Source: Prevotella sp. (GTDB lineage: Bacteria; Bacteroidota; Bacteroidia; Bacteroidales; Bacteroidaceae). Taken from it: a stretch of 64,000 nt of DNA. The translations under genes were made by a program, and so were the position numbers. A model generated the notes under the pieces. The model was not told where the DNA came from. It saw nothing but the letters and a program-made list of their open reading frames with translations, and searched no databases. Location of the stretch: contig JAGAON010000003.1 in NCBI GenBank assembly GCA_017623655.1, positions 124,001 to 188,000 of the forward strand, given 5' to 3'. Shown one piece after another: positions 3,281 to 58,488 of the stretch (positions are counted from its first letter, which is position 1; each line of letters opens with the position of its first letter).

Positions 3281-3365
3281 GTAATCAGCACCCTTTTACA
3301 CTGTAATCAGCACCTGTTTACATCGCAATCAGCACCTGATTACCGTGTAATCGGCACCCTTTTGC
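3281..3365. repeat. 85-bp four-unit dyad array, copy 1
   Basis: Four 19-bp units start at 3281, 3303, 3325 and 3347, separated by 3-bp spacers (ACT, ATC, CGT). The first unit is GTAATCAGCACCCTTTTAC. Code used for all copies: + means centre GGTGC and - means GCACC; the constant arm is CTGATTAC (after GGTG), and the other arm is P (TAATCAG, making a full dyad), A (TAAAAGG) or C (TAAACAG). This copy reads -A -C -P -A. It lies between argD and proC. Confidence 0.97.
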
Positions 3366-3431
3366 AGGGCAATGTGATATGGTGTAAGAAACACCAAGTA
3401 ACCAAACAACAAAAGCACTAAAACACAAACA

Positions 3432-4214
3432 ATGAAGATAACAGTAATAGGAGCAGGCGCAATGGGCGGCTCCACCGTTGAGGGAATGCTGAAATTACAG
3501 TCGCTCAAGGCCGGTGACATCACCGTTTCCGACCCTATGGCCGACCTTTCACGCTTTGCCGCCGCCGGCGCACGCACCACAACAGACAACGCCGGGGCCG
3601 TGAAAGGCGCGGACGTGGTAATGGTCTTCGTCAAGCCTTGGCTCGTTGAGCAGGTGCTGAAAGGCATAAAGGCGACGATGGATTACGCCAACCAGACGCT
3701 TGTCGTAATCGCCGCAGGGGTAAAAGGCGCCTCCATCCTTGAATGGATGGACAAGGACGGCACCGCTCCCGCAACCCTTCTCTGTATCCCCAACATCGCC
3801 ATCGCCCAGTTGGCGAGCATGACTTTCCTTGTGAACGTCAACGCCTCCGACTGTCAGGTGGCCGCCGTCAAGGTACTGTTTGACGAACTTGGCAAGTCAA
3901 TCCTTACCACCGAGAACCTTCTCGGAGCCGGAACCACGCTGGCCTCATGCGGCATTGCCTACGCCATGCGTTATGTCCGCGCCAGCAGTGAGGGCGGAGT
4001 GGAACTTGGTTTCAAGGCTCACGACGCGCAGGAGATAGTCATGCAGACCATGAAGGGTGCCGTGGAACTGCTCCAAGCCAGCGGTATGCACCCGGAGGCG
4101 GCCATAGACCTCGTGACCACTCCGGGCGGAGTGACCATCAAGGGACTTAACGAAATGGAACACGCAGGCTTCACCAGTGCCGTGATACGCGGTCTGAAAG
4201 CCGGCGCGAAGTAG
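3432..4214 (+). CDS. proC: Pyrroline-5-carboxylate reductase
   Basis: Last step of proline synthesis: NAD(P)H reduction of pyrroline-5-carboxylate. The protein has 260 residues, typical. It begins MKITVIGAGAMGGSTVEG (dinucleotide-binding loop), then VFVKPWLVEQVL, and has the C-terminal family signature around VTTPGGVTIKGLNEMEHAGF. The ATG at 3432 follows an A-rich leader. The array upstream separates it from argD, so it may have its own transcript start. Its neighbours proB and proA complete the pathway. Confidence 0.95.
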   Translation: MKITVIGAGAMGGSTVEGMLKLQSLKAGDITVSDPMADLSRFAAAGARTTTDNAGAVKGADVVMVFVKPWLVEQVLKGIKATMDYANQTLVVIAAGVKGASILEWMDKDGTAPATLLCIPNIAIAQLASMTFLVNVNASDCQVAAVKVLFDELGKSILTTENLLGAGTTLASCGIAYAMRYVRASSEGGVELGFKAHDAQEIVMQTMKGAVELLQASGMHPEAAIDLVTTPGGVTIKGLNEMEHAGFTSAVIRGLKAGAK

Positions 4215-4215
4215 T

Positions 4216-4318
4216 CTTCCCGGTTGTAGGTTTCGGGTTATAGGTTTTAGGTCACATCGTTAACGGTCTGCATCCGAAAGACCTTCAACCTTCAACCCAC
4301 AACCTCCAACCCTCAAAA
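4216..4318. repeat. Inverted repeat, CCAACCTCC/GGTTGTAGG family, proC-proB gap
   Basis: Starts with GGTTGTAGGTTTCGGGTTAT and ends with CAACCCACAACCTCCAACCC, so degenerate GGTT(G/A)TAGG arms face CCAACCTCC arms across about 40 nt. The same word family recurs at 8215-8330, 25527-25560 and, inside a coding region, at 29578-29604. It fills nearly the whole gap between two co-directional proline genes. Function unknown. Confidence 0.75.
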
Positions 4319-4325
4319 AACAATC

Positions 4326-5453
4326 ATGCGATTAGTCATAAAGATAGGTTCCAACGTGCTGGCGCGCCCCTGTGGCGGGCTTGACATCACGCGTATGTCG
4401 CACCTTGTGGACCAGATAGCCGAGCTTCGCCGCCGTGGTGTGGAGGTGATAATGGTCTCTTCCGGCGCCGTAGCGGCGGGAAGGGCACTGCTATCTACCA
4501 GCAAACAGCTTGACAGTGTGGAGCAGCGGCAACTCTTTTCAGCCCTCGGACAGGCGAAACTCATCAACCATTATTACGACCTTTTCCGTGAATACGGCCT
4601 TCATGTGGGGCAGGTGCTGACGATGAAGGAGAACTTCTCCACCCGCAGGGAGTACCTTAACCAGCGTGCCTGTATGCAGGTGATGCTGGAAAACGGCGTC
4701 ATACCCATCGTCAACGAGAACGACACGGTGTCTGTTACCGAGCTGATGTTCACCGACAACGACGAGCTTTCCGGCCTCATAGCGGCCATGCTCGACGCCG
4801 ACGAGCTGATAATCCTCTCCAACATCGACGGCATTTACAACGGTTCCCCGAACAATCCGGAGGCCAAGGTGATACCGGCCGTAGAGCCGGACCGTGACCT
4901 TAGCGAGTACATACAGACCGAAAAGAGCGGTCTGGGGCGCGGAGGCATGATAACAAAGTGTAACATTGCCCGCAAGGTAGCGGACGAAGGAATACGCGTT
5001 GTCATCGCCAACGGCAAGAAAGACAACATCCTTCTCCGCCTGTTTGACGCTCCGCAGGAGACGCTCCACACCGAGTTCGTGCCGCGACCCGACGCCGTTT
5101 CCACCGTGAAGAAGTGGATAGCCCACAGCGAGAGCTTCGCGAAAGGCGTGGTGCGGATAAACGACCGTGCCGTGAAGGCCATGTGTTCCGACAAGGCCAC
5201 GAGCCTCCTGTTCGTTGGAGTGACCGACATCGAGGGCGATTTTGAAGAGGGTGACATCGTGAACATCGTCACTCCGGAGAACCGCCGCATAGCGGTTGGC
5301 AGGAGTTCGTTCTCTGCTGACACCGCAAGGACATTGATAGGCCAGCACGACCAGAAGCCGCTGGTGCACTATGACTATCTGGCCATTACGGCCCCCGCCC
5401 CAACCCTCCCCGAGGGGAGGGAGGGTTTTCCCGCAAAACAAAGACAACATTAA
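4326..5453 (+). CDS. proB: Glutamate 5-kinase with PUA domain
   Basis: Phosphorylates glutamate at the gamma-carboxyl, the first committed step of proline synthesis. The protein has 375 residues. The amino-acid kinase domain occupies about 1-255 (MRLVIKIGSNVLARP, VSSGAVAAGRALL, NENDTVSVTEL, FTDNDELSGLIA, SGLGRGGM), and a C-terminal PUA domain about 275-355 (FAKGVVRINDRAVKAM). The last ~20 residues (from about APAPTLPEGREGFPAK) are encoded by a GGGGAGG-family repeat and do not look like family sequence, so the repeat has replaced or extended the natural end. Confidence 0.95.
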   Translation: MRLVIKIGSNVLARPCGGLDITRMSHLVDQIAELRRRGVEVIMVSSGAVAAGRALLSTSKQLDSVEQRQLFSALGQAKLINHYYDLFREYGLHVGQVLTMKENFSTRREYLNQRACMQVMLENGVIPIVNENDTVSVTELMFTDNDELSGLIAAMLDADELIILSNIDGIYNGSPNNPEAKVIPAVEPDRDLSEYIQTEKSGLGRGGMITKCNIARKVADEGIRVVIANGKKDNILLRLFDAPQETLHTEFVPRPDAVSTVKKWIAHSESFAKGVVRINDRAVKAMCSDKATSLLFVGVTDIEGDFEEGDIVNIVTPENRRIAVGRSSFSADTARTLIGQHDQKPLVHYDYLAITAPAPTLPEGREGFPAKQRQH

Positions 5454-5516
5454 ACTTAAAAACAAACCAGTCCGCCATCTCTTCCCTCCTCTTTGGGAGG
5501 GAAAGGGTGGGGACTC
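5390..5516. repeat. GGGGAGG-family inverted repeat spanning the proB end and proB-proA gap
   Basis: The left arm (5390-5432, core CCCTCCCCGAGGGGAGGGAG) lies inside the proB reading frame. The right arm (5480-5516, core CCTCCTCTTTGGGAGGGAAA) lies just before proA and is more degenerate. The pairing and about 45-nt centre match the element between argC and argD. The element supplies the last proB codons and the proB stop lies in its centre. Confidence 0.8.
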
Positions 5517-5522
5517 TTGCCT

Positions 5523-6764
5523 ATGTTACCACAATTTTCCATAGCGAAGAAGGCTTCGCGCACTCTTGCTCTCATCCCTGACGCGCGGCGGGACGAGATA
5601 CTTAACGCTGTTGCCGACGCCATATCACGGAACGAGGAGGCCATACTCGCGGCCAATGCCGCCGACCTCTCGCGCATGGACGCCGCCAACCCGCTTTACG
5701 ACCGCCTGCAACTGACGCCCAAAAGGCTTGCCGACATTGCCGCGGATATGCGTCATGTGGCGCAGCTGCCGTCGCCTTTGGGACGTGTGCTGGCCGAGAA
5801 AACCCTTGACAACGGGCTGCACCTGCGCCGTGTGGCGGTGCCGTTCGGTGTGATAGGCATGGTGTTTGAGGCACGGCCTAACGTCGCTTTCGACGTGTTC
5901 TCGCTCTGTTTCAAGAGCGGTAACGCCTGTGTGCTGAAAGGAGGGCGTGACGCTGACGAGTCAAACAAGGCCATTGTCGGCATGATACACGGCGTGCTTG
6001 AGGCCGAAGGCGTTGACACCGGCGTGGTACAGCTGCTTCCCGCCACCCACGAGGCTACGGGGGAGATGCTTGCGGCGGTAGGGTTCATAGACGTGTGCAT
6101 ACCCCGCGGCGGCAGAAAACTCATCGACTTCGTGCGTGACAACGCCAAGGTGCCGGTGATAGAGACGGGTGCCGGCGTGGTGCACGCATACTTCGACAAG
6201 GACGCCGACCTTGAGATGGGCACGCGCATCATAAACAATGCCAAGACGCGCAGGGTGTCAGTGTGCAACGCCTTGGACTGCCTCATAATGCACCAAGACC
6301 GTCTTTCTGACCTGAAAGCCATTTGCGAGCCGCTGGCGGAGAGCAATGTGAAGGTCTATGCGGACGAGAAGGCGTTTGCGGCACTTGACGGAAGCTATCC
6401 TTCCGGCCTGCTGTTCCGTGCCACCGACGAGTCGTTCGGCACGGAGTTCATGGCATACGCCATGGCCGTAAAGACCGTTTCATCGTTTGGCGAGGCCGTG
6501 GAGCACATAGCGACATACGGCTCCGGCCACAGCGAGTGCATCATAACGCAGGACAAGGCAGCCGCCGAGGCGTTCCAAAAGCAGGTGGATGCGGCGTGCG
6601 TATATGTCAATGCGCCGACCAGTTTCACCGACGGGGCGCAGTTCGGGCTGGGTGCCGAGATAGGCATCTCCACCCAAAAACTCGGCCCTCGCGGCCCCAT
6701 GGCGCTGGAGGAGATAACCACTTACAAGTGGCTCATAGACGGCAACGGACAGATACGTCCGTAA
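5523..6764 (+). CDS. proA: Glutamate-5-semialdehyde dehydrogenase (gamma-glutamyl phosphate reductase)
   Basis: NADPH reduction of glutamyl phosphate to the semialdehyde, second step of proline synthesis, probably in a complex with ProB. The protein has 413 residues from the ATG at 5523 ([18 protein letters not shown]). The TTG at 5493 falls within repeat sequence and is unlikely. Visible motifs are [17 protein letters not shown], the [15 protein letters not shown] loop, the catalytic Cys in VCNALDCLI and [10 protein letters not shown]. The ProA signature [20 protein letters not shown] is present. Confidence 0.96.
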
Positions 6765-6772
6765 GGTGGAAA

Positions 6773-6857
6773 ACAATCAGGTGCTGATTATGGTGTAATC
6801 AGCACCTGATTACAATGTAAACGGCACCTGATTACACCGTAATCAGCACCCTTTTAC
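6773..6857. repeat. 85-bp four-unit dyad array, copy 2
   Basis: Units start at 6773, 6795, 6817 and 6839 with spacers GGT, AAT and ACC. It reads +P -P -P -A. The third unit carries a changed constant arm (GTAAACGG). It begins 8 nt after the proA stop, so it would form the 3' UTR of the proline transcript, and is followed by AACGGCGTTT, also seen after copy 6. Confidence 0.96.
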
Positions 6858-6921
6858 AACGGCGTTTTTAACTATTCGCTTAAATGTTTGATAACCACAG
6901 AAATACAATACTGTAAAAACA

Positions 6922-8211: not shown

Positions 8212-8214
8212 TAT

Positions 8215-8330: not shown

Positions 8331-8335
8331 ACACA

Positions 8336-9277: not shown

Positions 9278-9312
9278 ACACTGGCGGATTACATACGGAA
9301 CAAGGACAAAAT

Positions 9313-11756: not shown

Positions 11757-11821
11757 GGGAGACGTCCGGCAGTCAGTATATGATTGTGCGGAGTTGCAGG
11801 CCGGCAGCGGTCTCATCCGCG

Positions 11822-11922
11822 TTGTAGGGACGCACCTTGGTGCGTCCGCCGATGCGTTGAGACATGACCGCCGACACGTGGAAACCACGGTGATTCGGAC
11901 GCACCAAGGTGCGTCCCTACAA
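11822..11922. repeat. GGACGCACC palindromic element, copy 1
   Basis: Two hairpin arms, the first TTGTAGGGACGCACCTTGGT and onwards (11822-11847), the second its inverted copy ending in GGTGCGTCCCTACAA (11897-11922), around about 49 nt. Each arm is itself a palindrome (GGACGCACC..GGTGCGTCC). It is joined to array copy 3 by a 33-nt linker containing GGCGTTACAAA. Confidence 0.92.
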
Positions 11923-11955
11923 CACATTGCGATTCACGGCGTTACAAAGCCCGTT

Positions 11956-12040
11956 GTAAAAGGGTGCTGATTACCGTGCAATCAGGTGCTAATTACCATG
12001 CAATCAGGTGCTGATTACAACGTAAAAGGGTGCTGATTAC
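11956..12040. repeat. 85-bp four-unit dyad array, copy 3
   Basis: Units start at 11956, 11978, 12000 and 12022; spacers CGT, CAT, AAC. It reads +A +P +P +A, all in one direction. With the adjacent palindromic element it fills most of the 349-bp gap between dtd and the next gene; nothing else recognisable was seen there. Confidence 0.97.
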
Positions 12041-14085: not shown

Positions 14086-14170
14086 GCAAACAGGTGCTGA
14101 TTACAATGTAATCAGCACCTGTTTGTTGTGTAATCAGCACCTGATTACGATGTAATTAGCACCCTTTTGC
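14086..14170. repeat. 85-bp four-unit dyad array, copy 4
   Basis: Units start at 14086, 14108, 14130 and 14152; spacers AAT, TGT, GAT. It reads +C -C -P -A. It lies in the convergent gap between lptB (or the small basic frame) and the barrel gene. A 33-nt linker containing CGTTTGTAACGCATTGAATC joins it to palindromic element copy 2; read from the palindrome side the order is the same as in the copy 3 composite. Confidence 0.96.
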
Positions 14171-14203
14171 GGCGGCGTTTGTAACGCATTGAATCATAAC
14201 GTC

Positions 14204-14302
14204 TTGTAGGGACGCACCTTGGTGCGTCCGGTTTCGCTTGCCGGTGCGTCCGAATCGCCGCACAACTCGCATTGGCGGACGCACCAAGGTGCGTCCCTAC
14301 AA
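14204..14302. repeat. GGACGCACC palindromic element, copy 2
   Basis: Outer arms TTGTAGGGACGCACC and GGTGCGTCCCTACAA, with two internal GGTGCGTCC words and a GGACGCACC in between. The right flank (14303-14404) is similar to the right flank of copy 4 of this family (shared GGTTTACA, GGATGCA, GGCAAGGA and GCCGT words), so the mobile or duplicated unit may be longer than the palindrome. It lies 107 nt before the end of the barrel gene. Confidence 0.9.
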
Positions 14303-21001: not shown

Positions 21002-21086
21002 GCAATCAGCACCTGTTTACCTCGTAAAAGGGTGCTGATTACACAGTGATCAGGTGCTGATTACAAGGTAAACAGGTGCTGATTAC
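21002..21086. repeat. 85-bp four-unit dyad array, copy 5
   Basis: Units start at 21002, 21024, 21046 and 21068; spacers CTC, ACA, AAG. It reads -C +A +P +C. The third unit begins GTGAT, a rare variant shared with the third unit of copy 11, together with the same ACA spacer. The ends are extended by CTCC on the left and GGAG on the right. It separates the phosphatase gene from the sensor genes. Confidence 0.96.
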
Positions 21087-26492: not shown

Positions 26493-26577
26493 GTAAAAGG
26501 GTGCTAATCATGTTGCAATCAGGTGCTGATTACACTGCAATCAGGTGCTGATCACGAGGTAATCAGGCGCTGATTAC
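26493..26577. repeat. 85-bp four-unit dyad array, copy 6
   Basis: Units start at 26493, 26515, 26537 and 26559; spacers GTT, ACT, GAG. It reads +A +P +P +P; the last unit has centre GGCGC. It is followed by AACGGCGTTT, as is copy 2. It lies between the kinase and the TonB receptor gene. Confidence 0.96.
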
Positions 26578-26662
26578 AACGGCGTTTGGCAAGCGTTGAT
26601 TTTCAGTCGGTTACAAAACGGCTTCCCGGGGTTGGTCTGACACACGAAAATATACTGTAAAA

Positions 26663-29191: not shown

Positions 29192-30288
29192 TGAAAAGAG
29201 ATATGATGACAGAACAATATGTAGAAGATGCCGTTGCGCTGTTAAGGCAACTGATAGCCGTTCCGTCCGTAAGCCGTGACGAGAAAGGTGCCGCGGACGT
29301 CATGCAGAGAGCCATGCAGGACTATGGCTTCAAGCCGTTCAGGGAGGGAAACAACCTTTGGATAAAGTCGGAAGACTGGGATGACGGTCGTCCCACGCTG
29401 CTTCTGAACGCTCACATAGACACCGTCAAGCCCGTGGCCACATGGGTTCGTGACCCTTTTACGCCTGTGATTGAGGGCGACAGGCTGTACGGTCTCGGCT
29501 CAAACGACTGCGGCGGAGGCTTGGTGTCGCTGCTGCAAGTGTTCCGGATGCTTGCCGACCCGTCACGGAAAGACCGTCAACCTCCAACCTCCAACCTCCA
29601 ACCTTCATTTAATTTCATATACCTTGCCTCGTGTGAAGAGGAGGTAAGCGGAGCCGGAGGCATACGTTCCGTGCTGCCGTTGCTGCCGGAAATCGACGTG
29701 GCGATAGTGGGAGAGCCGACTGGTATGCAGCCGGCCATAGCGGAAAGGGGGCTTATGGTCATTGACGGAGTGGCTCGCGGCAAGTCCGGTCATGCCGCCC
29801 GTAACGAGGGAGTCAACGCCATTTATGCGGCGCTTGACGACCTTGTGTTCATCCGTGACTACCGTTTCGAGAAGGTATCGCCGCTGCTTGGCCCGACGAA
29901 GATGCAGTGTACGGTGGTCAATAGCGGCACACAGCACAACGTAGTGCCTGACGAATGCCGCTTTATCATTGACGTGCGAACCAACGAACACTATACAAAC
30001 GAGGAGGTGTTCGCCTTTCTGCAAGGCAGGATGAAGAGCAGTCTGCAAGCCCGTTCCTTCCATCTCCACTCCTCGTCGATACCTGCTGACCATCCGCTTG
30101 TGCGGCGTTGCGTGGCAATGGGGATGCAACCGTTCGGCTCGCCGACGCTTTCCGATCAGGCTCTCATGCGCTTTCCGTCGTTCAAGTTGGGTCCGGGAGA
30201 GAGCTCGCGGTCGCACAGTGCTGACGAATTTATATGCGTTTCCGAGATAAGGAACGCCATAGAAACGTATATTAGGCTGCTGAGTTAG
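29191..30288 (+). CDS. argE: M20-family acetylornithine (N-acyl) deacylase
   Basis: Zn-dependent amidohydrolase. In Bacteroidales this family removes the acyl group from N-acyl-ornithine or -citrulline in arginine synthesis. It has 365 residues from the ATG at 29191; ATGs at 29203 and 29206 are alternatives. Metal and catalytic residues appear in LLNAHIDTVKP, LGSNDCGGG, ASCEEEVSGAGG, IVGEPTGMQPA and the final His in SSRSHSADEFI. Residues about 130-138 (PPTSNLQPS) are encoded by an intergenic-type repeat and sit in a variable loop. It starts at the receptor stop. Confidence 0.85.
   Translation: MKRDMMTEQYVEDAVALLRQLIAVPSVSRDEKGAADVMQRAMQDYGFKPFREGNNLWIKSEDWDDGRPTLLLNAHIDTVKPVATWVRDPFTPVIEGDRLYGLGSNDCGGGLVSLLQVFRMLADPSRKDRQPPTSNLQPSFNFIYLASCEEEVSGAGGIRSVLPLLPEIDVAIVGEPTGMQPAIAERGLMVIDGVARGKSGHAARNEGVNAIYAALDDLVFIRDYRFEKVSPLLGPTKMQCTVVNSGTQHNVVPDECRFIIDVRTNEHYTNEEVFAFLQGRMKSSLQARSFHLHSSSIPADHPLVRRCVAMGMQPFGSPTLSDQALMRFPSFKLGPGESSRSHSADEFICVSEIRNAIETYIRLLS
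29578..29604. repeat. CCAACCTCCAACC repeat inside the argE reading frame
   Basis: CAACCTCCAACCTCCAACCT is a near-perfect tandem of the word seen in the gaps at 4290-4318 and 8270-8330. It encodes QPPTSNLQP in the deacylase, between the helix ending MLADPSRKD and the strand FNFIYLASCEEE, and it keeps the frame. Confidence 0.75.
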
Positions 30289-32641: not shown

Positions 32642-32726
32642 GTAAAAGGGTGCTGATTACATTGTAATCAGGTGCTAATCGCAGTGTAATCAGCACCCTT
32701 TTGCAATGTAATCAGCACCCTTTTGT
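32642..32726. repeat. 85-bp four-unit dyad array, copy 7
   Basis: Units start at 32642, 32664, 32686 and 32708; spacers ATT, AGT, AAT. It reads +A +P -A -A. Unit 2 ends CTAATCGC, a rare variant shared with unit 2 of copy 10 along with both neighbouring spacers. Outer units are near-complementary, so the whole array could fold as one stem. Confidence 0.97.
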
Positions 32727-32759
32727 GGTGGCCTTTGTAATACGTTGAATTGCAATGCG

Positions 32760-32829
32760 TTGTAGGGACGCACCTTCTTGCCACCGGCATAAAGCCTATG
32801 GCAAGCGGCCAAGCCGAGCGGGTGCGTCC
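32760..32829. repeat. GGACGCACC palindromic element, copy 3, truncated and interrupted
   Basis: Begins TTGTAGGGACGCACC as the other copies do, but the matching GGTGCGTCC comes 46 nt later with CTTGCCACC..GGCAAGCGG hairpin sequence in between, and the second arm is missing. It is joined to array copy 7 by a linker with GGCCTTTGTAATACGTTGAA and runs, after 29 nt, into a AACCCCGAAGGGG element. It looks like a chimera of repeat families. Confidence 0.8.
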
Positions 32830-32858: not shown

Positions 32859-33172
32859 GAACCCCGAAGGGGTGACATATTACAGCACAGGGTGTAAACC
32901 CTGTGTTTAGGTGGTGTGTCCGCAAAATGTATCGGGAACCCCGAAGCCGGCAGGCGAGGAGCACGAAGTGCGACGAGGGGTGACATATCCGCTGCATATA
33001 ATACGACATTACATAAATATATGGTGATGATTATATATTGTTTGGTATCACCCCTCGTCGCACTTCGTGCTCCTCGCCTGCCGGCTTCGGGGTTCCCGAT
33101 ACCATTTCCACGCACAAAATGATAACGCAGGGTTTACACCCTGCGCTTGGATATGTCACCCCTTCGGGGTTC
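32859..33172. repeat. Nested inverted repeat of about 314 bp, AACCCCGAAGGGGTGACA family, copy 1
   Basis: Ends AACCCCGAAGGGGTGACATA and its inverse, TGTCACCCCTTCGGGGTT. Inside are a CAGGGTGTAAACCCTG-type hairpin on each side and a 40-bp inner inverted pair (left from 32937, core CCGGCAGGCGAGGAGCACGA; right from 33050), around an AT-rich centre (about 32982-33048). No frame in it looks coding. It lies just downstream of asnB. Together with array copy 7 and the truncated palindrome it occupies most of the 738-bp gap. Confidence 0.9.
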
Positions 33173-33206: not shown

Positions 33207-34928
33207 TTACTCGTATGCCTGCTCGTGAACTCCCGCCACGGCGCGGCCTGACGGGTCGTTCATGGTCTTCCATGCCTCGTCCCATTCGAGGGCTTTGGCG
33301 GTAGAGCAGGCCACGCTCGCCTCGTGAGGCACGGCTCTTGCCGCGCTGTCGCTGGGGAAATGCTCCTCAAAAATGCAGCGGTAGTAGTACTCCTCCTTGC
33401 ACAACGGGGTGTTGATGGGGAACCGTTCCGCCGCATGGGCCATCTGTTCGTCGGTCACGGCCTTGGCCGTTATCTCCTTCAAAGTGTCTATCCATGAATA
33501 TCCCACGCCGTCGGAGAACTGCTCCTTCTGCCTCCATGCCACGCTGTCCGGCAGCATATCGGCGAACGCCTCGCGCACTATCTTCTTCTCCATCACCGTT
33601 CCCGGACACATCTTGTACTCCGGATTCAGGGACATTGCCACGTCAAGGAACTCCTTGTCGAGGAACGGCACGCGTCCCTCCACGCCCCATGCGCTCAGTG
33701 ACTTGTTCGCCCTGAGGCAGTCATACTGGTGCAGCTTGCCCAGCTTGCGCACCGTCTCCTCGTGAAACTCCCTTGCGTCCGGAGCCTTATGGAAGTACAG
33801 GTAACCGCCGAACACCTCGTCGGCACCCTCGCCCGACAGCACCATCTTGATGCCCATCGACTTTATCACCCTTGCGAGGAGGTACATTGGCGTTGACGCG
33901 CGCACGGTGGTCACGTCGTAAGTCTCTATGAAATATATCACGTCACGTATCGCATCCAGTCCCTCCTGTATGGTATAGTTGATTTCGTGGTGTACTGTCC
34001 CGATGAAATCAGCCACCTCCCGTGCCTTGGCAAGGTCCGGCGCGCCTTTCAGTCCTACCGCAAACGAGTGCAGCCTCGGCCACCATGCCTTCTCCGCACC
34101 GTCCGTCTCTATGCGTTTCGCGGCGTATTTGCGCGCTATTGCCGACGTGACGCTTGAGTCAAGGCCGCCTGACAGCAGCACGCCGTACGGCACGTCACTC
34201 ATCAGCTGGCGCCTTACCGCCCCCTCGAGAGCGTCATGAACGGCCGCCACGCTGTCCTTGTATGACAGCCGTGCGGTGTCAGCCACGGGTGCGGAACACG
34301 CTCCCGGCATACGTTCCATCCACTCGCGCCTGTACCATCTCACCATCTTTCCGTCCCTTGACCAGTAGTAGTGGCCGGGCAGGAACGGCTCGTACTCGTC
34401 GCAAAAGCCTTCCAGCGCCTTCAGCTCTGACGCCACATAGAGCCTTCCCTCCTTGTCATGTCCGATGTAAAGCGGTATCACTCCTATCGGGTCACGGCCT
34501 ATAAGGTACTCGTCAGTCTCCTCGTCGTATAGGGCGAAGGCGAATATTCCGCTCGCTTTCTCGAAGATACCGCTCGGGTCTTCGCTGCCCGCGGCTTTCC
34601 ATTCGCGGTACAGCGCAAGGATGACTTCGCAGTCGGAACCCGTCTGGAAGTCATATTTCCCCGCAAACTCCGCGCGTATGTCGCGGTGGTTGTAAATCTC
34701 TCCGTTCACCGCCAGCACCTGTTTCCTGTCGGGAGAGAACAGCGGTTGCTGTCCGGACTCGGGGTCAACGATGCTCAACCGCTCATGGGCGAGGATGGCG
34801 GAGCCGCCTACATGGATGCCGCTCCAGTCCGGTCCGCGGTGGCGGATCTTCTGACTCATCTTCAAAGCCTTCTGTCTTAGCTCGGCAGTCTGTTGCCGGA
34901 TGCCGAAAATACATGCAATTCCACACAT
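33207..34928 (-). CDS. asnB: Asparagine synthase, glutamine-hydrolysing
   Basis: Makes asparagine from aspartate, ATP and glutamine amide nitrogen. It has 573 residues, like E. coli AsnB. The nucleophile is Cys2 (MCGIACIFG). The N-terminal amidotransferase domain has HRGPDWSG, LAHERLSIVD and NGEIYNH; the synthase domain has the pyrophosphate loop LLSGGLDSSV and VLSGEGADEVFGGY. It heads a nitrogen-assimilation set with amt and glnK upstream on the same strand, though arrays and repeats separate them. Confidence 0.96.
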   Translation of the reverse strand: MCGIACIFGIRQQTAELRQKALKMSQKIRHRGPDWSGIHVGGSAILAHERLSIVDPESGQQPLFSPDRKQVLAVNGEIYNHRDIRAEFAGKYDFQTGSDCEVILALYREWKAAGSEDPSGIFEKASGIFAFALYDEETDEYLIGRDPIGVIPLYIGHDKEGRLYVASELKALEGFCDEYEPFLPGHYYWSRDGKMVRWYRREWMERMPGACSAPVADTARLSYKDSVAAVHDALEGAVRRQLMSDVPYGVLLSGGLDSSVTSAIARKYAAKRIETDGAEKAWWPRLHSFAVGLKGAPDLAKAREVADFIGTVHHEINYTIQEGLDAIRDVIYFIETYDVTTVRASTPMYLLARVIKSMGIKMVLSGEGADEVFGGYLYFHKAPDAREFHEETVRKLGKLHQYDCLRANKSLSAWGVEGRVPFLDKEFLDVAMSLNPEYKMCPGTVMEKKIVREAFADMLPDSVAWRQKEQFSDGVGYSWIDTLKEITAKAVTDEQMAHAAERFPINTPLCKEEYYYRCIFEEHFPSDSAARAVPHEASVACSTAKALEWDEAWKTMNDPSGRAVAGVHEQAYE

Positions 34929-35048: not shown

Positions 35049-35382
35049 AACCCTGAAAGGGTGACATAATACAGCCCGGGGTGTTAACCCCGGGAGTTGT
35101 CATGTTGGGCAATGAATAGCATTGGCACCCCAAAGCCGTAAGGCGAGGCGGTCTAAAACCGCCGAGGGGTGTTCTTCGCTTGTTGTCTTGTTCCGATACA
35201 TTGCCGTTTTGTTTTCTTGTGTGACCATTTCTTGTTTTCTTGTCACCCACTTCTTTTACCCCTCGTCGCACGTTGTGCTCCTCGCCTGCCGGCTTCGGGG
35301 TGTCCGATACCTTGTGCTGGTTTGCCAATCTCTTTTCCGGGGTTAACACCCCGGGCTTGGTTCTGTCACCCCTTCGGGGTTC
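35049..35382. repeat. Nested inverted repeat of about 334 bp, AACCCCGAAGGGGTGACA family, copy 2
   Basis: The left end is AACCCTGAAAGGGTGACATA (one arm decayed) and the right end is GTCACCCCTTCGGGGTT. The second tier is CCCGGGGTGTTAACCCCGGG. The inner arms are CACCCCAAAGCCGTAAGGCG and, inverted, CGCCTGCCGGCTTCGGGGTG; the left inner arm carries GGCGGTCTAAAACCGCC in place of the usual hairpin. The centre is T-rich. It lies upstream of asnB, between it and array copy 8. Confidence 0.88.
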
Positions 35383-35434: not shown

Positions 35435-35519
35435 GTGAAAGGGTGCTGATTACACTGTAAACAGGTGCTGATTACGGTGTAAAAGAGGCCTGATTGCGGT
35501 GTAATCAGCACCCTTTTAC
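35435..35519. repeat. 85-bp four-unit dyad array, copy 8
   Basis: Units start at 35435, 35457, 35479 and 35501; spacers ACT, GGT, GGT. It reads +A +C x -A. The third unit (x) is GTAAAAGAGGCCTGATTGC, with a different centre (AGGCC). The same variant occupies the third position of copy 9. It ends 57 nt before the amt stop side. Confidence 0.95.
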
Positions 35520-39872: not shown

Positions 39873-39957
39873 GCAATCAGCACCTGATTACCCCGCAATC
39901 AGCACCTGATTACAGTGTAAAAGAGGCCTGATTACAGTGTAATCGGCACCTGATTGC
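39873..39957. repeat. 85-bp four-unit dyad array, copy 9
   Basis: Units start at 39873, 39895, 39917 and 39939; spacers CCC, AGT, AGT. It reads -P -P x -P with x = GTAAAAGAGGCCTGATTAC, the AGGCC-centred variant also found third in copy 8. It separates dapL from the outer-membrane protein gene. Confidence 0.96.
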
Positions 39958-43121: not shown

Positions 43122-43177
43122 TCTTTGTTTTTACAGGGGATGCCAGTCTGTCCGGCAATGCGCTGGGTTGTAATGCG

Positions 43178-43209
43178 TTGTAGGGACGCACCAAGGTGCG
43201 TCCCTACAA
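43178..43209. repeat. GGACGCACC palindromic element, copy 4 (minimal form)
   Basis: A single hairpin: TTGTAGGGACGCACC, AA, then the exact inverse. Only one of the two arms found in the other copies is present. Its right flank (43210-43290) resembles that of copy 2 (shared GGTTTACA, CCGG.ATGCA, GGCAAGGA.GCCGT and TGCAACT words). Array copy 10 starts 90 nt on. Confidence 0.92.
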
Positions 43210-43299
43210 AGGTGGTTTACAGCCATCTTGCCGGATGCACGGCAAGGATGCCGTGCCTGCTTTTATGACCTGCAACTTTCATTGCATATTAACGCCTCC

Positions 43300-43384
43300 G
43301 CAAAAGGGTGCTGATTACATTGCAATCAGGTGCTAATCGCAGTGTAATCAGCACCTGTTTACATGGTAATCAGCACCCTTTTGC
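43300..43384. repeat. 85-bp four-unit dyad array, copy 10
   Basis: Units start at 43300, 43322, 43344 and 43366; spacers ATT, AGT, ATG. It reads +A +P -C -A. Units 1 and 4 are exact inverses, and with their flanks (ACGCCTCC on the left, GGAGGCGT on the right) make 27-bp perfect terminal inverted repeats. With the terminator and palindrome upstream it accounts for most of the 531-bp glnN-nadA gap. Confidence 0.97.
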
Positions 43385-44660: not shown

Positions 44661-44673
44661 CAGATGATAAAAA

Positions 44674-47446: not shown

Positions 47447-47531
47447 GCAAAAGGGTGCTGATTACCGTGCAATCAGGTGCTGATTACACAGTGATTAGGT
47501 GCTGATTACAATGTAATCAGGTGCTGATTGC
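47447..47531. repeat. 85-bp four-unit dyad array, copy 11
   Basis: Units start at 47447, 47469, 47491 and 47513; spacers CGT, ACA, AAT. It reads +A +P +P +P, all in one direction. The first unit, spacer and second unit nearly match copy 3, and the third unit (GTGAT start, ACA before it) matches copy 5. Confidence 0.97.
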
Positions 47532-52272: not shown

Positions 52273-52357
52273 GTAAAAGGGTGCTGATTACCTTGTAAAC
52301 AGCACCCTTTTACCGTGTAATCAGCACCTGATTGCAAGGTAATCAGCACCCTTTTAT
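52273..52357. repeat. 85-bp four-unit dyad array, copy 12
   Basis: Units start at 52273, 52295, 52317 and 52339; spacers CTT, CGT, AAG. It reads +A -A -P -A. In unit 2 the constant arm is GTAAACAG. It lies in the convergent gap between the SNF2 gene and the arabinofuranosidase. Confidence 0.97.
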
Positions 52358-52474: not shown

Positions 52475-55400
52475 TTAGTTGTTCACTATGCTGTTGGCAT
52501 CGGCTACCGTTATCTTGGAATCATCGTTCATGTCGGCTACGGAGCGGTCGAAACCTGTCTGCTGAACGCCGTGGAAATGCTTGATTACCATGTCCGCGTC
52601 AATGGAATCCACTGTCCCGTTGCCATCTACGTCACCGAGCAGGCAGCTTGTCAGCCCCTCGGCGGGAAACGCCTTGATGAGCTTGTTGTACTCACTTGCC
52701 GTGATTGGCATCACCGTGCCGTGCCGCGGAGTGAACGCTCCGCTCGTGGCCGTCTGTGCTTTCAGGGTAAACTTCTTCCAGTCCGTGGTGGTGCAGAACT
52801 GGTAGTAGCCGCTGCCGTAACAGTCATACATCACTACCCACGTGTTCTCTCCTATGAGCCGGAATATACCTCCGCCCTCTACCGCCACGTTTGTCTGCTG
52901 CACCGTGCCGGTGGGTGCGCTCCATTGGCTGCCGGTCGGCATCCCCTTTTCCGGCGTCAGACGCTCTGCCGTGACGTGGCATATACCGCCCGAACCCTCG
53001 TTCTTGTATATCATGTGGTACAGTCTGTCGCCCTCGTCATACACGATGTCCGCGTCAATGGTGGCCGATCCGCGGTCGTAGAAATGCACAGGATAATCCA
53101 ACAGGTCGGTGAAGTCGTCGTTGGCGTAGCAGTAATACACCTTGTCGTAGGTGCAGGTGCCGTCGTCACTCGTCAGAAGTGAGAAGTAAATCATGTAGCG
53201 TCCCTTGCTTCCGTCAGTGTTGACATAGTCTGCATCCCATATAACCTCAGGTGCCCACACGCGTGTAACGCTGCTCCATCCGTCGGGAAACCTGTCGGGG
53301 AAGTGTACGGTAGAGTGCTGCCAGTGTATCAGGTCGGTACTCTTGTACATGACAATGCCGCGGTTGCTTGCCCATCCTTCGGCGCATCTCATGTCGGTAG
53401 CGACCATGTAGAACGTCTTGCCGTCGGCTCCCCGCAGTATGTGCGGGTCACGTATTCCTTTCTTTATGGCCACGGTGTCTGACGCCATCACGCGCTGTCC
53501 GTTGTTCAGCACGGTGTAGTTGAAGCCGTCTTCCGAGTATGCGTAGTACAGGTTCTCGTCGCTGTTGGACGGGAAGAAGGCGAAGAGATAGCCTTTGTAG
53601 AGGTCGGAAGAGCGGTCAACGGCTATGCGGTACGCGTCGAGTTCCTCGTACATGGCCTTCACCTTGGCTATCGCGTCAGTGATTTCCTGCTGTGTTTCCG
53701 CCGCCGTTGCGTCCTTAATGAGTTTCCGTGCCTGCTGTTTCTGTGCGTCGGAGAGTATCTTTTTCGTCTCAATCAGGCCTTGCAGCTTGTTAATCCACAG
53801 CTCAAGGGATTTCTTGTAGCCGCTGGTCGCTTCGCCAATCCATTGCAGGCGGAAGTTATCTACCGTCATCCAGTTGGCGTCGGTGCCCGCACTCTTGAAG
53901 CCGATGGTAAGCTCTCCGCCTATCGCCGTGCCCGTAACGGAGTATTCCGCCGTGCCGCTAACCTCGGTAGTGTTCTCTCCTGCGAAGAGGAACACGCCGC
54001 TTGCCTTGGCCGGTGTGCCGCTTTGGTTCTCGGCATGACAGGTCGCCGTCACCCTGTAAGTGCCCTCCGGCAGCCCTGTCACCGTCTGCTGCACGTAGCC
54101 GTCAGGCAGGTGTCCCGGTGCTTTCGTCCACCGTTCGCAGTAGTATGAGCCTGTCTTTGCGGCGGAAGGCTCGCTGTTGTTCTGGGTCTGCATGCCGTTG
54201 TTGTCCCATCCGTTCAATGCGTTCTCGAAGCTGGGGTTGGTTATTGACGATGTGTAATCTACCGCTTCGGCGCACTGTTCCAGCTTGGCCGCGCCCCATA
54301 TAAGCCAGCTTGCCGTGATTTTCTGTTTCAGTTCCAGCCCCACCGTCAGGCATCCGTCCTTGTCGGAGCGGCCTACCACGGCGTTGTTGTACTTCCCTTC
54401 GCTGAAGCATACGGCCGCTTCCTCCATGGAGTTGGGCCCGGTTGCGCCGGTTCTGTCGCTCGCCCAGTCCGCGAAACGGTGCGTATTGCCGCCCGCAAAG
54501 ATGTAGGCGTTGCTCATTTCGTAGCCCTTTTCCGCGTTGGCCACGCATATATCGCTTGCCGTATTGCGGAAGAAGCCTTGCAGAGAGAAGCGGTACAGCG
54601 TGTTAGGTGCAAGTCCTTTCACCGTTTGTTGCAGCAGTGCGCACTTCTCGTACAGCTCGTTCACGCCGGCTCTTGTTGTCGGCGAGTAGGTGTTGCCGCC
54701 CACATAGCCCTTGCATTCCCATCCGTCTGTGCCTTGCGTCATGGCCGGATTCTCCATTATGTCGGTCACATCCACGCTCATTGTGCCGTCAGTCGCGGCG
54801 AGAAGTGAATCCTGTACGGCCGTGATGGCTTTGTATTGCACGTTTCCTATCAGCTCAAACAGCGTCGCCTGAGCCTTGTCCGCGGTCTTGGTGCAGCCTG
54901 AGTGCAGGGCGTTTCCTGCTATATAGGCCTGCGCTTCGGGGCAGAATATCCTTATACGGCCATCCTCTGCCGGGATAAACTGCCATGTTACGGGGAAGGT
55001 CTTGGCCTTGTCGGTGTATATGTCGCCGTCAATTCCGATGAATTTGTCCGTAAAGTCTGTCTGCATCATGGTGTAACCGTCGTCTCCGGACTTCGTTATC
55101 GCCACGGGAAGACCGTATTTGTCCAGCACGGCCTGTGTGCCCCATGCCGCTCCTCTGCCCAAGAACGCGCCCTCTTCCTTATTGTATAGGTAGTACGTTC
55201 CTTCCGGAACAGCCACCGCCTCGCTGCCTGTCTCGCCTTGACTGACGTTGAGTTCAAGGATGTTGAACGAGTAAGCCGGTACCGTTATGAGCATCTTGCT
55301 GCCGCTTAAGGCCATCTCCTGCTCCGTCGGCACCACCGCATAATGGTCGGAGTTGGTGTTCTCCGCCTTGTCGGTCGTGCTTGTCATCTGCACCAGCTTG

Positions 55401-57670
55401 CCGCTTGTGGCGTGGTATCCTTTAAGGTTCAGCGTGGTGTTCTGGCTCTCTGAACCGGGGTTCACTATCTTGACATACAGTTTTCCGGTGCTGTCGTCGA
55501 TGCTGGAAGACACATATACCTTGCGTTCTGTCGGCAAAGCGAAGGAGTGGAGCATACTGCCGTCAAGCCAGCACCTTACCTTTGCCCCCTCAACCTCTAT
55601 CTTTATGTGGTACGTCTTGCCTGTCACGAGGCTGCCGGCGGCACTTGCCACCGTTGTCTTCGTGCCGTCCTTGCATACCTCCACGGCGTGTTGCGTGTTG
55701 TTCCAGCCACCGAGATTCCACCAGCAGAAGTTGTCATTGTCGTTGTAGTTGAACGCTATCAGGAATCCCTCAGCGCCCGATGTCTTGGTGGCATCAAGCT
55801 CAATGGTGTAGTTGTCGCCCAGTTCCGTGCTGAGATTGGCGTACAACAGTCCCTGCATCGATGCGCTTCCCTGCGTCAATGTGCCGTTGCTTTCCGCCCA
55901 AGAACCGCCGTTGTCTGTCCATTTCTCGGTGCCGTTGAACTTGGCGTTGTATGTCGTTCCGTCCGCTTTCGTCACCTTGTAGTTGGTGAATGTGGCCGTT
56001 GTTGACCATGTGCTGAGACCTCCGTAGTTGGCTTTGTCGTTGACTTTGTTGCCTGTCTCCACCCATTTCACGTTCTCCTTGCCCACATAGTTCGGCATCA
56101 GTTTCTGCACATAGTACGACGGAGTGCCGTAACTCTCGCTGGCGTTGAAACGTATCATGTCCGGCATCCACTTCTGATCGTTCTCGTTCACGAATATAGG
56201 AGCGTAGCTTCCCATGATACATATATCGGAATTGTTTTCCATTCCTTGCATATATATGGCCTCGCCGAGCGCTGCGGCCAATGTTCCCGTGGTGCCGAAG
56301 TTCTGTGTTACGGCGTATTCTCCGGCGTAAATCTTCGGTGACTTGGTGCGGTCATAGCCGTCATATTTGCTGTACTGGCTCACGAACCATGACGGTGAAC
56401 GGTAGTAATGCTCGTCCACCGCATCCACGGGATAGCTGTTCCTCCATGTCGGGTTGTCCGTTCCCCATGACTCCACGTTGCCTATGCAGACGGCATCGGG
56501 GTACGCCGCCTTTATGGCTTGGTAGAACTTGTAATAGCGTTCGGCGTATTCAAGGCTCTGGTCGTTGTTCGTCGTGGATGAATAGTTATAGTTCTCGTTG
56601 CCTATCTCTATCAGTCTCAGGTTGAAAGGCGCTTCATGTCCGTTGGCTATTCGCATCGCCCCGTACTTCGTGTCAGCACCCCCGTTGGCGTATTCCATGG
56701 CGTCCAGCGCCTCCTGTATGTACTCGTCAAGGTCGTCCAAGGGCTGATACCACCCGTGGCCGAGACCTACGTTGACCACGAACAGCGGTTCCGCGCCTAT
56801 GTCCTCGGCCAGTTGCAGCATCTCGTGGAAGCCCAGTCCGTCGCTCACGCGGTAGTTCCAGTTCACGTTCTGGTGCCCGGGGCGCGTCTCTATGGCGCCT
56901 ATCGTCTCCTTCCACTTAAACCTGTTCTGCACGCCATTGGCCCACTGCCCCTCTATGTAGCATCCTCCGGGGAAGCGCATGAAAGCCGGTTTCATGTCGG
57001 CCAGCTTCTGCGCAAGGTCTATGCGGCAACCGTTCTCCCTGTCCTTGAAGGTAGGCGGGAAGAGGCTCACCACGTCTATGCTGAACGATGCCGCCCCCGT
57101 GGCGGCGTTTACTATCGCGAACTTGCCGCGCGGACATGAGCCTGTGGCGGTTATCGTGGCTGTCATCTTCTTCCATTCCGTGCCTGCGCTAACCGTCAGC
57201 GGAGCCTCTCCGATGACTTTGCCGCCGTCGTCCTGCAACTGCATCGCAAGCTGTGCCTTTGTGCCGGCTTTTATAAATAAGGAGAGCTTGTACGCCTTTC
57301 CGGCCTCGATGTTCATTCCCCAGAATCCGCTGTTGGCCACAGCGTCGCCTTTTGCGGAGAAAGTAACGTCGGCATATCCCTGCTGTGCGCTGTTCAGCGG
57401 CGCCGTTGTGCCGCGGCTTATGGTGGCCTTGCCCGTGGCAGACCAGTACTCTGTCGAGGCATTGTCCTCAAAAGAGCGGTTGCGTATCAGCTCCGCGTAG
57501 AGGCCGCCGTCACCTGCATGGTTTATTTCCTCGAAGAAAATGCCGTAGTGCAGGTTGCCGATGGCGGTGCCGCGTTCGGCTGGTGAGATGTCAAGAGTTA
57601 CCTGTGCCTGCATCTGTGAGACGCACAATGCAAACATAGTCCATAGGGACAGTAGTCGATGTAGGTTCAT
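52475..57670 (-). CDS. Multidomain arabinofuranosidase: GH51, GH43-like and dockerin-like domains
   Basis: 1731 residues from ATG 57670 (signal peptide MNLHRLLSLWTMFALCVSQM). An in-frame TTG four codons upstream is rejected. Order: carbohydrate-binding segment and GH51 (alpha/beta)8 domain (about 20-540) with acid/base Glu in EIGNENYNY (about 358) and probable nucleophile in IYAGEYAV (about 452); a concanavalin-like insert (about 560-690); the GH51 C-terminal sheet; two SFEN.GW-type binding domains (about 985-1270); a GH43-like propeller (about 1360-1665) with GIRDPHILRG and RVWAPEVIWD; and a dockerin type I pair (GDVDGNGTVDSIDADMVI and ADMNDDSKITVADANSI). Predicted to act outside the cell on arabinan or arabinoxylan. 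Confidence 0.88.
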   Translation of the reverse strand: MNLHRLLSLWTMFALCVSQMQAQVTLDISPAERGTAIGNLHYGIFFEEINHAGDGGLYAELIRNRSFEDNASTEYWSATGKATISRGTTAPLNSAQQGYADVTFSAKGDAVANSGFWGMNIEAGKAYKLSLFIKAGTKAQLAMQLQDDGGKVIGEAPLTVSAGTEWKKMTATITATGSCPRGKFAIVNAATGAASFSIDVVSLFPPTFKDRENGCRIDLAQKLADMKPAFMRFPGGCYIEGQWANGVQNRFKWKETIGAIETRPGHQNVNWNYRVSDGLGFHEMLQLAEDIGAEPLFVVNVGLGHGWYQPLDDLDEYIQEALDAMEYANGGADTKYGAMRIANGHEAPFNLRLIEIGNENYNYSSTTNNDQSLEYAERYYKFYQAIKAAYPDAVCIGNVESWGTDNPTWRNSYPVDAVDEHYYRSPSWFVSQYSKYDGYDRTKSPKIYAGEYAVTQNFGTTGTLAAALGEAIYMQGMENNSDICIMGSYAPIFVNENDQKWMPDMIRFNASESYGTPSYYVQKLMPNYVGKENVKWVETGNKVNDKANYGGLSTWSTTATFTNYKVTKADGTTYNAKFNGTEKWTDNGGSWAESNGTLTQGSASMQGLLYANLSTELGDNYTIELDATKTSGAEGFLIAFNYNDNDNFCWWNLGGWNNTQHAVEVCKDGTKTTVASAAGSLVTGKTYHIKIEVEGAKVRCWLDGSMLHSFALPTERKVYVSSSIDDSTGKLYVKIVNPGSESQNTTLNLKGYHATSGKLVQMTSTTDKAENTNSDHYAVVPTEQEMALSGSKMLITVPAYSFNILELNVSQGETGSEAVAVPEGTYYLYNKEEGAFLGRGAAWGTQAVLDKYGLPVAITKSGDDGYTMMQTDFTDKFIGIDGDIYTDKAKTFPVTWQFIPAEDGRIRIFCPEAQAYIAGNALHSGCTKTADKAQATLFELIGNVQYKAITAVQDSLLAATDGTMSVDVTDIMENPAMTQGTDGWECKGYVGGNTYSPTTRAGVNELYEKCALLQQTVKGLAPNTLYRFSLQGFFRNTASDICVANAEKGYEMSNAYIFAGGNTHRFADWASDRTGATGPNSMEEAAVCFSEGKYNNAVVGRSDKDGCLTVGLELKQKITASWLIWGAAKLEQCAEAVDYTSSITNPSFENALNGWDNNGMQTQNNSEPSAAKTGSYYCERWTKAPGHLPDGYVQQTVTGLPEGTYRVTATCHAENQSGTPAKASGVFLFAGENTTEVSGTAEYSVTGTAIGGELTIGFKSAGTDANWMTVDNFRLQWIGEATSGYKKSLELWINKLQGLIETKKILSDAQKQQARKLIKDATAAETQQEITDAIAKVKAMYEELDAYRIAVDRSSDLYKGYLFAFFPSNSDENLYYAYSEDGFNYTVLNNGQRVMASDTVAIKKGIRDPHILRGADGKTFYMVATDMRCAEGWASNRGIVMYKSTDLIHWQHSTVHFPDRFPDGWSSVTRVWAPEVIWDADYVNTDGSKGRYMIYFSLLTSDDGTCTYDKVYYCYANDDFTDLLDYPVHFYDRGSATIDADIVYDEGDRLYHMIYKNEGSGGICHVTAERLTPEKGMPTGSQWSAPTGTVQQTNVAVEGGGIFRLIGENTWVVMYDCYGSGYYQFCTTTDWKKFTLKAQTATSGAFTPRHGTVMPITASEYNKLIKAFPAEGLTSCLLGDVDGNGTVDSIDADMVIKHFHGVQQTGFDRSVADMNDDSKITVADANSIVNN

Positions 57671-57748
57671 ATCTTTAATCAAGTTAGGTTGTTAATCAGT
57701 TATATGGTGGCCCGCTGTACCACGAAAAAAGTTTAGTCGTATCACCTG

Positions 57749-57780
57749 CAAAGGTACATAACATTCTGTGTAATTGCAAA
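57749..57780 (-). promoter_or_regulatory. Promoter of the arabinofuranosidase gene
   Basis: On the minus strand TTTG (57780-57777), 20 nt, TACCTTTG (57756-57749), with a leader of about 70 nt. It is a full consensus, so expression need not depend on an activator. Confidence 0.8.
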
Positions 57781-57930
57781 TTGTTACACGTTTTTTAACA
57801 TTCTGCGTTCTTGTTTGCAGTGATTTGAAAAAGGGGGAAGGTAATATGCGTTCATGTTAACATATATAAAACAAAAAAAAAAAAACAAAATTCAGAGTTA
57901 CGGGATATAGTTTCTTTGTGGTAAAAGTAC

Positions 57931-57938
57931 TAACTTTG
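57931..57938 (+). promoter_or_regulatory. -7 box for the small basic membrane protein gene
   Basis: TAACTTTG, 73 nt before the ATG at 58012. No TTG at the expected distance. The 341-bp divergent gap (57671-58011) otherwise holds the arabinofuranosidase promoter and A-rich DNA including a run of 13 A (57875-57887); no dyad array. Confidence 0.6.
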
Positions 57939-58011
57939 CACCACCTATTATATATAGGTTCCGGCAAAGGCCGTATCAAAAGGAGTAATAAAGAAGAAAA
58001 AATCATCTATA

Positions 58012-58227
58012 ATGCAGAAAACAACCAATCAAAATGCCTCCGGCGGGCATCACGGGCACAGCCAGCATCAGCATAGGAAAAAGGATTCTACGTCAGAATT
58101 CAGAAGGTATATGCTCAACAGAGGCCGTCGTCGCCGCAGGATGGAGAACTTCCTTTTCGGAACGCTTGTGTGTGTCGCCGTGCTGTTGGGACTGTTTCTG
58201 GTCTCCGTCTATCTGCTGGGCATATAA
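58012..58227 (+). CDS. Small His/Arg-rich single-span membrane protein
   Basis: 71 residues. A His/Gln/Ser-rich start (GGHHGHSQHQHRKK), an Arg-rich stretch (YMLNRGRRRRRMENF), then one membrane span (LFGTLVCVAVLLGLFLVSVYLLGI) at the C-terminus. The positive stretch before the span predicts N-in. A -7 box lies upstream. The His cluster could bind metal, but this is a guess. No family recognised. Confidence 0.6.
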   Translation: MQKTTNQNASGGHHGHSQHQHRKKDSTSEFRRYMLNRGRRRRRMENFLFGTLVCVAVLLGLFLVSVYLLGI

Positions 58228-58270
58228 GCCTGTCGCCGCAATTTCATGGTATGCCGGTTGCGAACCGGCG

Positions 58271-58369
58271 TTATAGGAGCGCATCTTGGCGTGTCCGCCG
58301 ATACGGGAAATGCGGCAATTCGGACGCTACCGCACGAAAATCCGGACGCACCAAGGTGCGTCCCTACAA
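58271..58369. repeat. GGACGCACC palindromic element, copy 6
   Basis: The right arm is intact (GGACGCACCAAGGTGCGTCC then CTACAA); the left arm is decayed (TTATAGGAGCGCATCTTGGC). An extra GGACGCTACCGCACG word lies in the centre. A 34-nt linker with ATTCAATACGTTACAAA joins it to array copy 13. Confidence 0.9.
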
Positions 58370-58403
58370 TAGATTAATATTCAATACGTTACAAAAGTTA
58401 CGA

Positions 58404-58488
58404 TAAAAGGGTGCTGATTGCATTGCAATCAGCACCCTTTTACTGTGTAATCAACACCTGTTCACACGGTAATCAGCACCCTTTTGCG
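58404..58488. repeat. 85-bp four-unit dyad array, copy 13
   Basis: Units start at 58404, 58426, 58448 and 58470; spacers ATT, TGT, ACG. It reads +A -A -C -A. Unit 3 has drifted (GTAATCAACACCTGTTCAC). The right end is followed by GGAG as in several other copies. Confidence 0.95.

Follow-up and report, generated by a model that had tools for sequence, protein, structure and literature searches.

The 64-kb stretch of Prevotella DNA analysed here (the window) lies on contig C8 of its source genome, G000 (1.93 Mb, 9 contigs, ~60% complete), and carries between its genes a family of short arrays, here called tetrads, in which a 19-bp imperfect dyad is repeated four times. An earlier sequence-only reading had listed thirteen of them, and all were recovered (13/13), each with four 19-bp units and three 3-bp spacers at an exact 22-bp pitch and 52 units in total; only the start of the last array is shifted, from 58404 to 58403. 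The lowest matrix score among these 52 units was 15.23; when the window was simulated 50 times with a first-order Markov model, no two units reaching this score lay at the 22-bp distance. The arrays are listed below, with the state of the orthologous gap in a related genome, G021, where one was reached through gene homology.

3281..3365, no strand assigned, tetrad array 1; orthologous gap in G021 without array
6773..6857, no strand assigned, tetrad array 2; four-unit array also in the orthologous gap of G021
11956..12040, no strand assigned, tetrad array 3
14086..14170, no strand assigned, tetrad array 4
21002..21086, no strand assigned, tetrad array 5; four-unit array also in the orthologous gap of G021
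26493..26577, no strand assigned, tetrad array 6; orthologous gap in G021 without array
32642..32726, no strand assigned, tetrad array 7
35435..35519, no strand assigned, tetrad array 8
39873..39957, no strand assigned, tetrad array 9
43300..43384, no strand assigned, tetrad array 10; four-unit array also in the orthologous gap of G021
47447..47531, no strand assigned, tetrad array 11
52273..52357, no strand assigned, tetrad array 12; identical at 79/85 positions to the array at L034:1057, with flanks matching at 15/40 and 13/40
58403..58487, no strand assigned, tetrad array 13; start corrected from 58404

Unit number and unit anatomy

Beyond the window, unit number was counted in a sample of 464 kb of G000 (24% of the genome, window included), in which the C5 stretches had been picked with matches in view. 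A unit-by-unit scan gave 86 clusters, made up of 62 with four units, one with five, two with three, six with two and 15 single units, against 10 positions above the unit score cut-off in a shuffled copy of the same sample. Exactly four units at the 22-bp pitch were present in 62 of the 71 multi-unit clusters, and 198 of 200 gaps between adjacent units measured 3 bp; one of the six two-unit clusters is doubtful, having weak scores and units 44 bp apart. A looser rule that accepts worn outer units gave 59 four-unit clusters out of 69, with 7 of five and one each of seven, three and two. The claim that arrays hold never three and never five units thus stands inside the window and fails genome-wide, where four units per array is predominant, yet not absolute. 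The counts of arms, pairing, placement and copying given below are based on the 62 strict four-unit arrays (248 units), other cluster sizes being excluded.

The ideal unit is GTAATCAGCACCTGATTAC; the consensus skeleton of this imperfect dyad starts with GYAA, finishes with TTRC and has G at position 8 and C at position 12. In a gap-free alignment of 34 arrays from eight sources the strongest columns were 4, 8, 12 and 16, and in G000 the A at position 4 and the T at position 16 are invariant (248/248 units). The description of one arm as nearly constant and the other as having three main forms was borne out, as one side reads TCA in 185/248 units and the opposite side AAG in 109, TCA in 75, ACA in 41 and rarer forms in 23. 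Units do occur in both directions, as had also been noted, and their order follows 8 patterns up to reversal; the half-sites alternate in direction, 11 bp apart. The outermost half-sites of the G000 arrays are mostly AAG (37/62 and 39/62) and the inner ones mostly TCA. Two AAG arms never meet within one unit (0/248 versus 12.6 expected), and C at position 2 on both sides is found in 6/248 units versus 21.2 expected.

A signal of the kind expected from RNA was sought in several ways. Permutation tests of base-pair covariation in the 62 arrays placed pairing within units below the permuted level and gave no excess between units, with units 1 and 4 equal to permuted and units 2 and 3 lower. Along the direction of transcription, judged in 44 tandem gaps, no strand bias was seen in the units (92 versus 84) or in wobble-type versus anti-wobble pairs (75 versus 79), and with neither covariation nor strand bias nothing was seen acting at the RNA level. 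No Rfam model matched over the arrays, the six matches in the window all being to Acido-Lenti-1 and lying off the arrays. An RNA hairpin or long cruciform was rejected in view of the permutation tests and the strand symmetry. The unit pattern and the missing RNA-type signal fit putative protein sites on double-stranded DNA.

Copying, placement and distribution of the arrays

Among the 62 G000 arrays, 12 pairs are identical at 78 or more of the 85 positions. Reshuffling units among arrays gave a mean of 0.62 such pairs and a maximum of 3 in 60 trials; this first null ignored the orientation patterns, and a strict one, in which units were reshuffled within the same orientation pattern, doubled the expectation and left the outcome unchanged (mean 1.22, maximum 6, 0/200 trials reaching 12). 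Both flanks match at 19/40 positions or fewer in 10 of the 12 pairs, a background level from which it follows that the likeness stops at the array edges; the exceptions are one pair with a common left flank (36/40) and another with 22/40 there. Units are as alike between arrays as within an array (15.20 and 15.24 of 19), so the arrays have not grown by local duplication. These observations support the whole 85-bp array as the copied unit. No inverted match above permutation was found in the immediate array flanks.

Some flanks do carry sequence in common. Module A, a linker after a GTAG-type palindrome, adjoins an array in 23 of up to 124 flanks of the G000 sample, and of its 20 strong matches there 19 adjoin an array. 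In the window it was placed at the following positions.

11916..11955, + strand, flank module A, abutting array 3
14171..14210, - strand, flank module A, abutting array 4
26578..26617, - strand, flank module A, diverged, abutting array 6
32727..32766, - strand, flank module A, abutting array 7
58363..58402, + strand, flank module A, abutting array 13

The GTAG-type palindrome itself (TGTAGGGACGCACC plus its complement) is found in the window at 11821-11857, 14203-14239, 43177-43234 and elsewhere; the 464-kb sample holds 62 exact half matches to it, 40 of which lie within 300 bp of an array centre. Other common flanks occur in genomes G016 and G001 and in two pairs in G089, and none above the cut-off was found in G021, G102, G077 and G004. 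In G016 the arrays at L107:2143 and 9389 and at L109:2122 and 16685 have flank sequences in common in direct and inverted order; 11/231 flank pairs match, 7 of these inverted, as though a larger copied element terminated there. Beside arrays in several genomes (flanks at L218:6654, L218:10283 and L222:15712) a short TTGATTATCAA-like dyad was seen by eye.

According to our own simple gene calls, all 62 G000 arrays lie between genes (0 inside genes) and never two in one gap. Of the G000 gaps of at least 100 bp, 16/29 convergent, 44/114 tandem and 2/32 divergent ones hold an array, i.e. 60/143 non-divergent versus 2/32 divergent gaps. In seven other genomes 48/50 arrays are intergenic, and divergent gaps are occupied in 17/47 cases versus 30/162 for other gaps; intergenic location is general, gene-end location is not. 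Array spacing is also more regular than in random draws from the non-divergent gaps, with a coefficient of variation of 0.52 versus 0.86 ± 0.12 in one G000 stretch and 0.56 versus 0.78 ± 0.17 in a second.

Comparison of orthologous gaps, which the sequence-only reading had proposed, found arrays whole on one side and wanting on the other. Five G000 arrays have a G021 gap reached through gene homology, and 3/5 of these gaps hold a four-unit array (6773, 21002 and 43300) and 2/5 none (3281 and 26493); five more common gaps lie on G021 contigs fetched for carrying arrays, so that the pooled figure of 8/10 is biased upward. Seen in reverse, 8/8 G021 clusters have a G000 array in the orthologous gap, 6 of them in the place-chosen sample and 2 on array-chosen loci. 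Neither the 3281 nor the 6773 gap holds an array in the more distant G122 and G008. Unit counts at common gaps can differ, G021 having four units where G000 has two clear ones (two inner units lost), four where G000 has three, and five where G000 has three (or four with a worn unit read by eye). In six pairs with four units on both sides, G000 and G021 agree at 156/192 skeleton and 27/54 spacer positions, 34 of the 36 skeleton changes being transitions; the keeping of copies in place, which the higher skeleton than spacer agreement might suggest, is not borne out, since wrong partners are equal in skeleton identity. Arms agree at 0.62 in the same gap and at 0.59 between wrong partners. Similarity between arrays of one gap barely exceeds that between wrong partners, and the gap is therefore more clearly common than the copy.

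A search with a two-unit pattern returned 40 stretches in named genomes, of which 26 were Prevotella or Prevotellaceae metagenome assemblies, all with unit clusters (26/26); the remaining 14, from Treponema, archaea, Streptococcus and other sources, had none. A model built from the window only matched 6/60 genomes, and a mixed model of the 34 arrays matched 38/120 Prevotella genomes, 16 of them with at least 12 matches (the window's own genome is included in both counts); in an order-wide draw of 149 genomes the mixed model matched the window's own alone. In the mixed-model scans up to 37 candidates were scored per genome (similar limits order-wide), and the 120-genome scan used strict filters and counted both strands, a match not being the same as an array. 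Plasmid and phage records gave no match to the one array queried.

Four units prevail outside G000 as well. The SUG853 Prevotella loci, which were found by the two-unit pattern and so not selected for four, have four units in 12/13 cases, and G021, mostly on contigs picked by the four-unit model, in 33/34. Eight further genomes gave 40 chains, 28 of them with four units, seven with five, two with three, two with seven and one with two, in stretches picked around matches to the four-unit model and hence favouring four; seven of these genomes lie outside the model and one, G010, inside it. Chains with four units make up 5/12 in G016 and 6/8 in G004. G093 departs from four, its GTAATATGGGCCATATTAC tandem units keeping the 22-bp pitch in runs of 7, 3 and 2 (L224:7406-7640 and L224:19506-19657). 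The core differs between genomes: it is of TCA type in G000, G021 and SUG853, of AAG type in G004, G102, G089 and G010, and of TCT type in G016, and G001 has GCC and related centres, often with a fifth unit of another type (five units in 7/13). The same tetrad layout recurs across Prevotella genomes with quite different cores.

Interpretation of the arrays

The explanation that we prefer, with about even confidence, is that the tetrads are a miniature dispersing element, the copied unit being the whole 85-bp set of four putative dimer-binding dyads and the core turning over between species. A protein dimer would bind each 19-bp dyad as double-stranded DNA, and from the 22-bp pitch the four putative sites would lie on one face of the helix. 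A trans-acting DNA-binding protein, perhaps the enzyme that mobilises the element or one that the host also uses, would thus meet eight half-sites per array, 11 bp apart and alternating in direction; between species the recognised core would change and the geometry persist. In this explanation we infer the dimer, its identity, the mechanism of copying and any host role; the common gaps and even spacing point to use by the host, and the patchiness and copying point to selfish spread. A bolder form, which we put forward as possible but would not lean on, is that of a new genome-wide protein-addressed DNA platform, in which a four-dimer complex occupies ~85 bp that are block-copied and rather evenly spaced, and in which the geometry (19 + 3, four times) is frozen while the recognition code has been rewritten from one species of the genus to the next. 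The sequence-only reading had taken the fixed unit number as the mark of a functional or copying constraint, with protein sites or a mobile element as its main options; the copying of whole arrays (12 pairs versus 1.22) supports the copying part, and protein sites fit the unit pattern and the missing RNA signal, no such protein having been found.

Several results weigh against a protein-addressed dispersing element. No mobilising gene was found, nor was a target-site duplication, the mean direct repeat being 2.34 versus 2.12 ± 0.20 when permuted, and the difference in gap length at the clearest empty site is 110 bp (216 versus 106) and not 85. An even spacing of arrays need not be expected of a purely selfish element. 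The absence of AAG/AAG units may just reflect an inherently asymmetric unit, and complementarity between spacers 1 and 3 lies slightly above the permuted level (1.50 versus 1.36 ± 0.09). Between G000 and G021, skeleton identity is 0.812 in the same gap and 0.809 with wrong partners, and the corresponding spacer values are 0.50 and 0.39, with 69/720 partner permutations reaching 0.50; saturation within a kept motif, replacement, conversion and repeated arrival all fit these same-gap data.

The arrays could instead be chromosome-organising or regulatory platforms of the host, bound at intervals by a nucleoid-type complex of four dimers, with their dispersal incidental. Even spacing, a single array per gap, the avoidance of divergent gaps in G000 and the sharing of gaps (3/5 homology-judged gaps occupied in G021; all six of the eight G021 clusters that map into the G000 sample occupied there) speak for this account. 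It is nevertheless rendered doubtful by the patchy occurrence within the genus (38/120 genomes), by near-identical pairs with unrelated flanks, by common gaps in which the sequence is not clearly kept, and by the seven other genomes, where divergent gaps are not avoided and no fixed place relative to genes is left. Those same seven genomes bear on the gene-end proposal (transcription terminators or RNA hairpins), which the convergent and tandem gaps of G000 had suggested and which was not upheld there (divergent 17/47 versus 30/162). Given also the lack of base-pair covariation, of strand asymmetry and of an Rfam family on the arrays, we regard terminators as very improbable.

More specifically, the arrays could be operators, read by an Lrp/AsnC octamer of four dimers or by an oligomeric housekeeping regulator of another family such as ArgR. 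Four dyads per array would match the four dimers of such an octamer. The archaeal BarR octamer is described with 4 to 5 regular sites two helical turns apart (PMC10201364), and ARG boxes, semi-palindromes of 18 bp, are separated by 3 bp (PMC6640053), so that semi-palindromic dimer sites at about two helical turns, and in ArgR the 3-bp spacer, resemble the tetrads. ArgR and Lrp operators serve particular promoters, whereas the tetrads form dozens of arrays in all kinds of gap across the genus, with a core that varies between species. These are likenesses of working and not of membership, ArgR having been compared by architecture alone. AsnC-family genes were found in 32/32 genomes tested, in carriers and others alike. 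The comparison of their helices, at an assumed helix position, started from 22 rows and kept 17, after G000a, G077a, G082a and G089a (wrong open frames) and G001b (another paralogue) were dropped. One paralogue has the same helix in 9/9 readable rows across several array cores, and the other (8 rows) has two helix forms that track kinship, one of which is also present in a match-free genome. An operator role of this kind appears unlikely.

Movement by a RAYT (Y1) transposase, as for REP/REPIN-type elements, would account for high copy number, intergenic position and palindromic units, and one Y1 gene was found in the genome with an array ~0.6 kb off. The copied unit is, however, a tetrad and not a hairpin-forming doublet, no hairpin signal was seen, and a different kind of palindrome surrounds the Y1 gene, with six copies of which three lie no more than 160 bp from it. 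The co-occurrence that the sequence-only reading proposed to look for did not emerge, Y1 being present at E ≤ 1e-6 in 10/16 strong carriers versus 49/104 other genomes (p = 0.29), a comparison that presumes both 120-genome draws to be identical. We consider a RAYT origin quite improbable; neither this nor the Lrp/AsnC candidate gained clear support as the binding protein of the arrays. Around the Y1 gene (L009:1248-2384) there are six palindromes of the form GCCCT-AAA/TTT-AGGGC as well as CCCCGGGG-type hairpins, and Rfam has no match there.

The view that the arrays belong to no recognised repeat family has held in the literature searched (largely without subscription journals) and among RNA families, and the portions available of PMC12306157, PMC5771137 and PMC2864571 describe none that matches. 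The nearest relatives in kind are the REP, BIME and REPIN elements, which are likewise short, palindromic, high-copy, intergenic and species-specific, the REPIN doublet (PMC3116915) being a multi-unit copied arrangement as the tetrad block is. The GTAG or CGTC tag (PMC3733652) of the 20-40 bp REP palindrome is missing from the ideal unit and its variants. The tetrads further differ in having four 19-bp dyads at a rigid 22-bp pitch, in lacking a hairpin signal and in having no shown RAYT link.

Miniature inverted-repeat transposable elements (MITEs) offer another comparison. The tetrads resemble these in being miniature, non-coding and dispersed, in dispersing as a unit (the near-identical pairs above the null, and gaps with and without array), and in having outermost half-sites mostly of the same form at both ends; they differ in that no target-site duplication or parent transposase was found and in that the internal tandem structure is the common part. 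Among such elements is one from Porphyromonas gingivalis, which belongs to the Bacteroidota. This BrickBuilt MITE (PMC4596501) has intergenic tandem short units with leader or tail modules that some copies lack, the units being spacerless 23-nt direct repeats whose number varies between strains, with 19 copies in ATCC 33277. The tetrads, in contrast, consist of dyads at a 22-bp pitch with 3-bp spacers and a near-fixed number, in 62 strict copies in 464 kb.

For Prevotella, a common gut and rumen genus, the tetrads would be a further intergenic element of high copy number. By counting to four, such a repeat hints at how large its protein complex would be, and a constant geometry with a core that differs among many sequenced species should make the binding protein findable and would provide a natural series for studying the evolution of DNA recognition.

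Other repeats in the window

The six Acido-Lenti-1 matches form three inverted pairs, at 32860-33171, 35049-35381 and 58581-58909, arranged as the ends of composite elements of ~310-335 bp. The arrangement suggests a mobile DNA element more than an ordinary small RNA, and two of the composites flank an asnB-like gene at 33207-34928. Lastly, a CAACCTC heptamer is repeated 3.9 times at 29578-29604, with related CAACCT runs near 4276.

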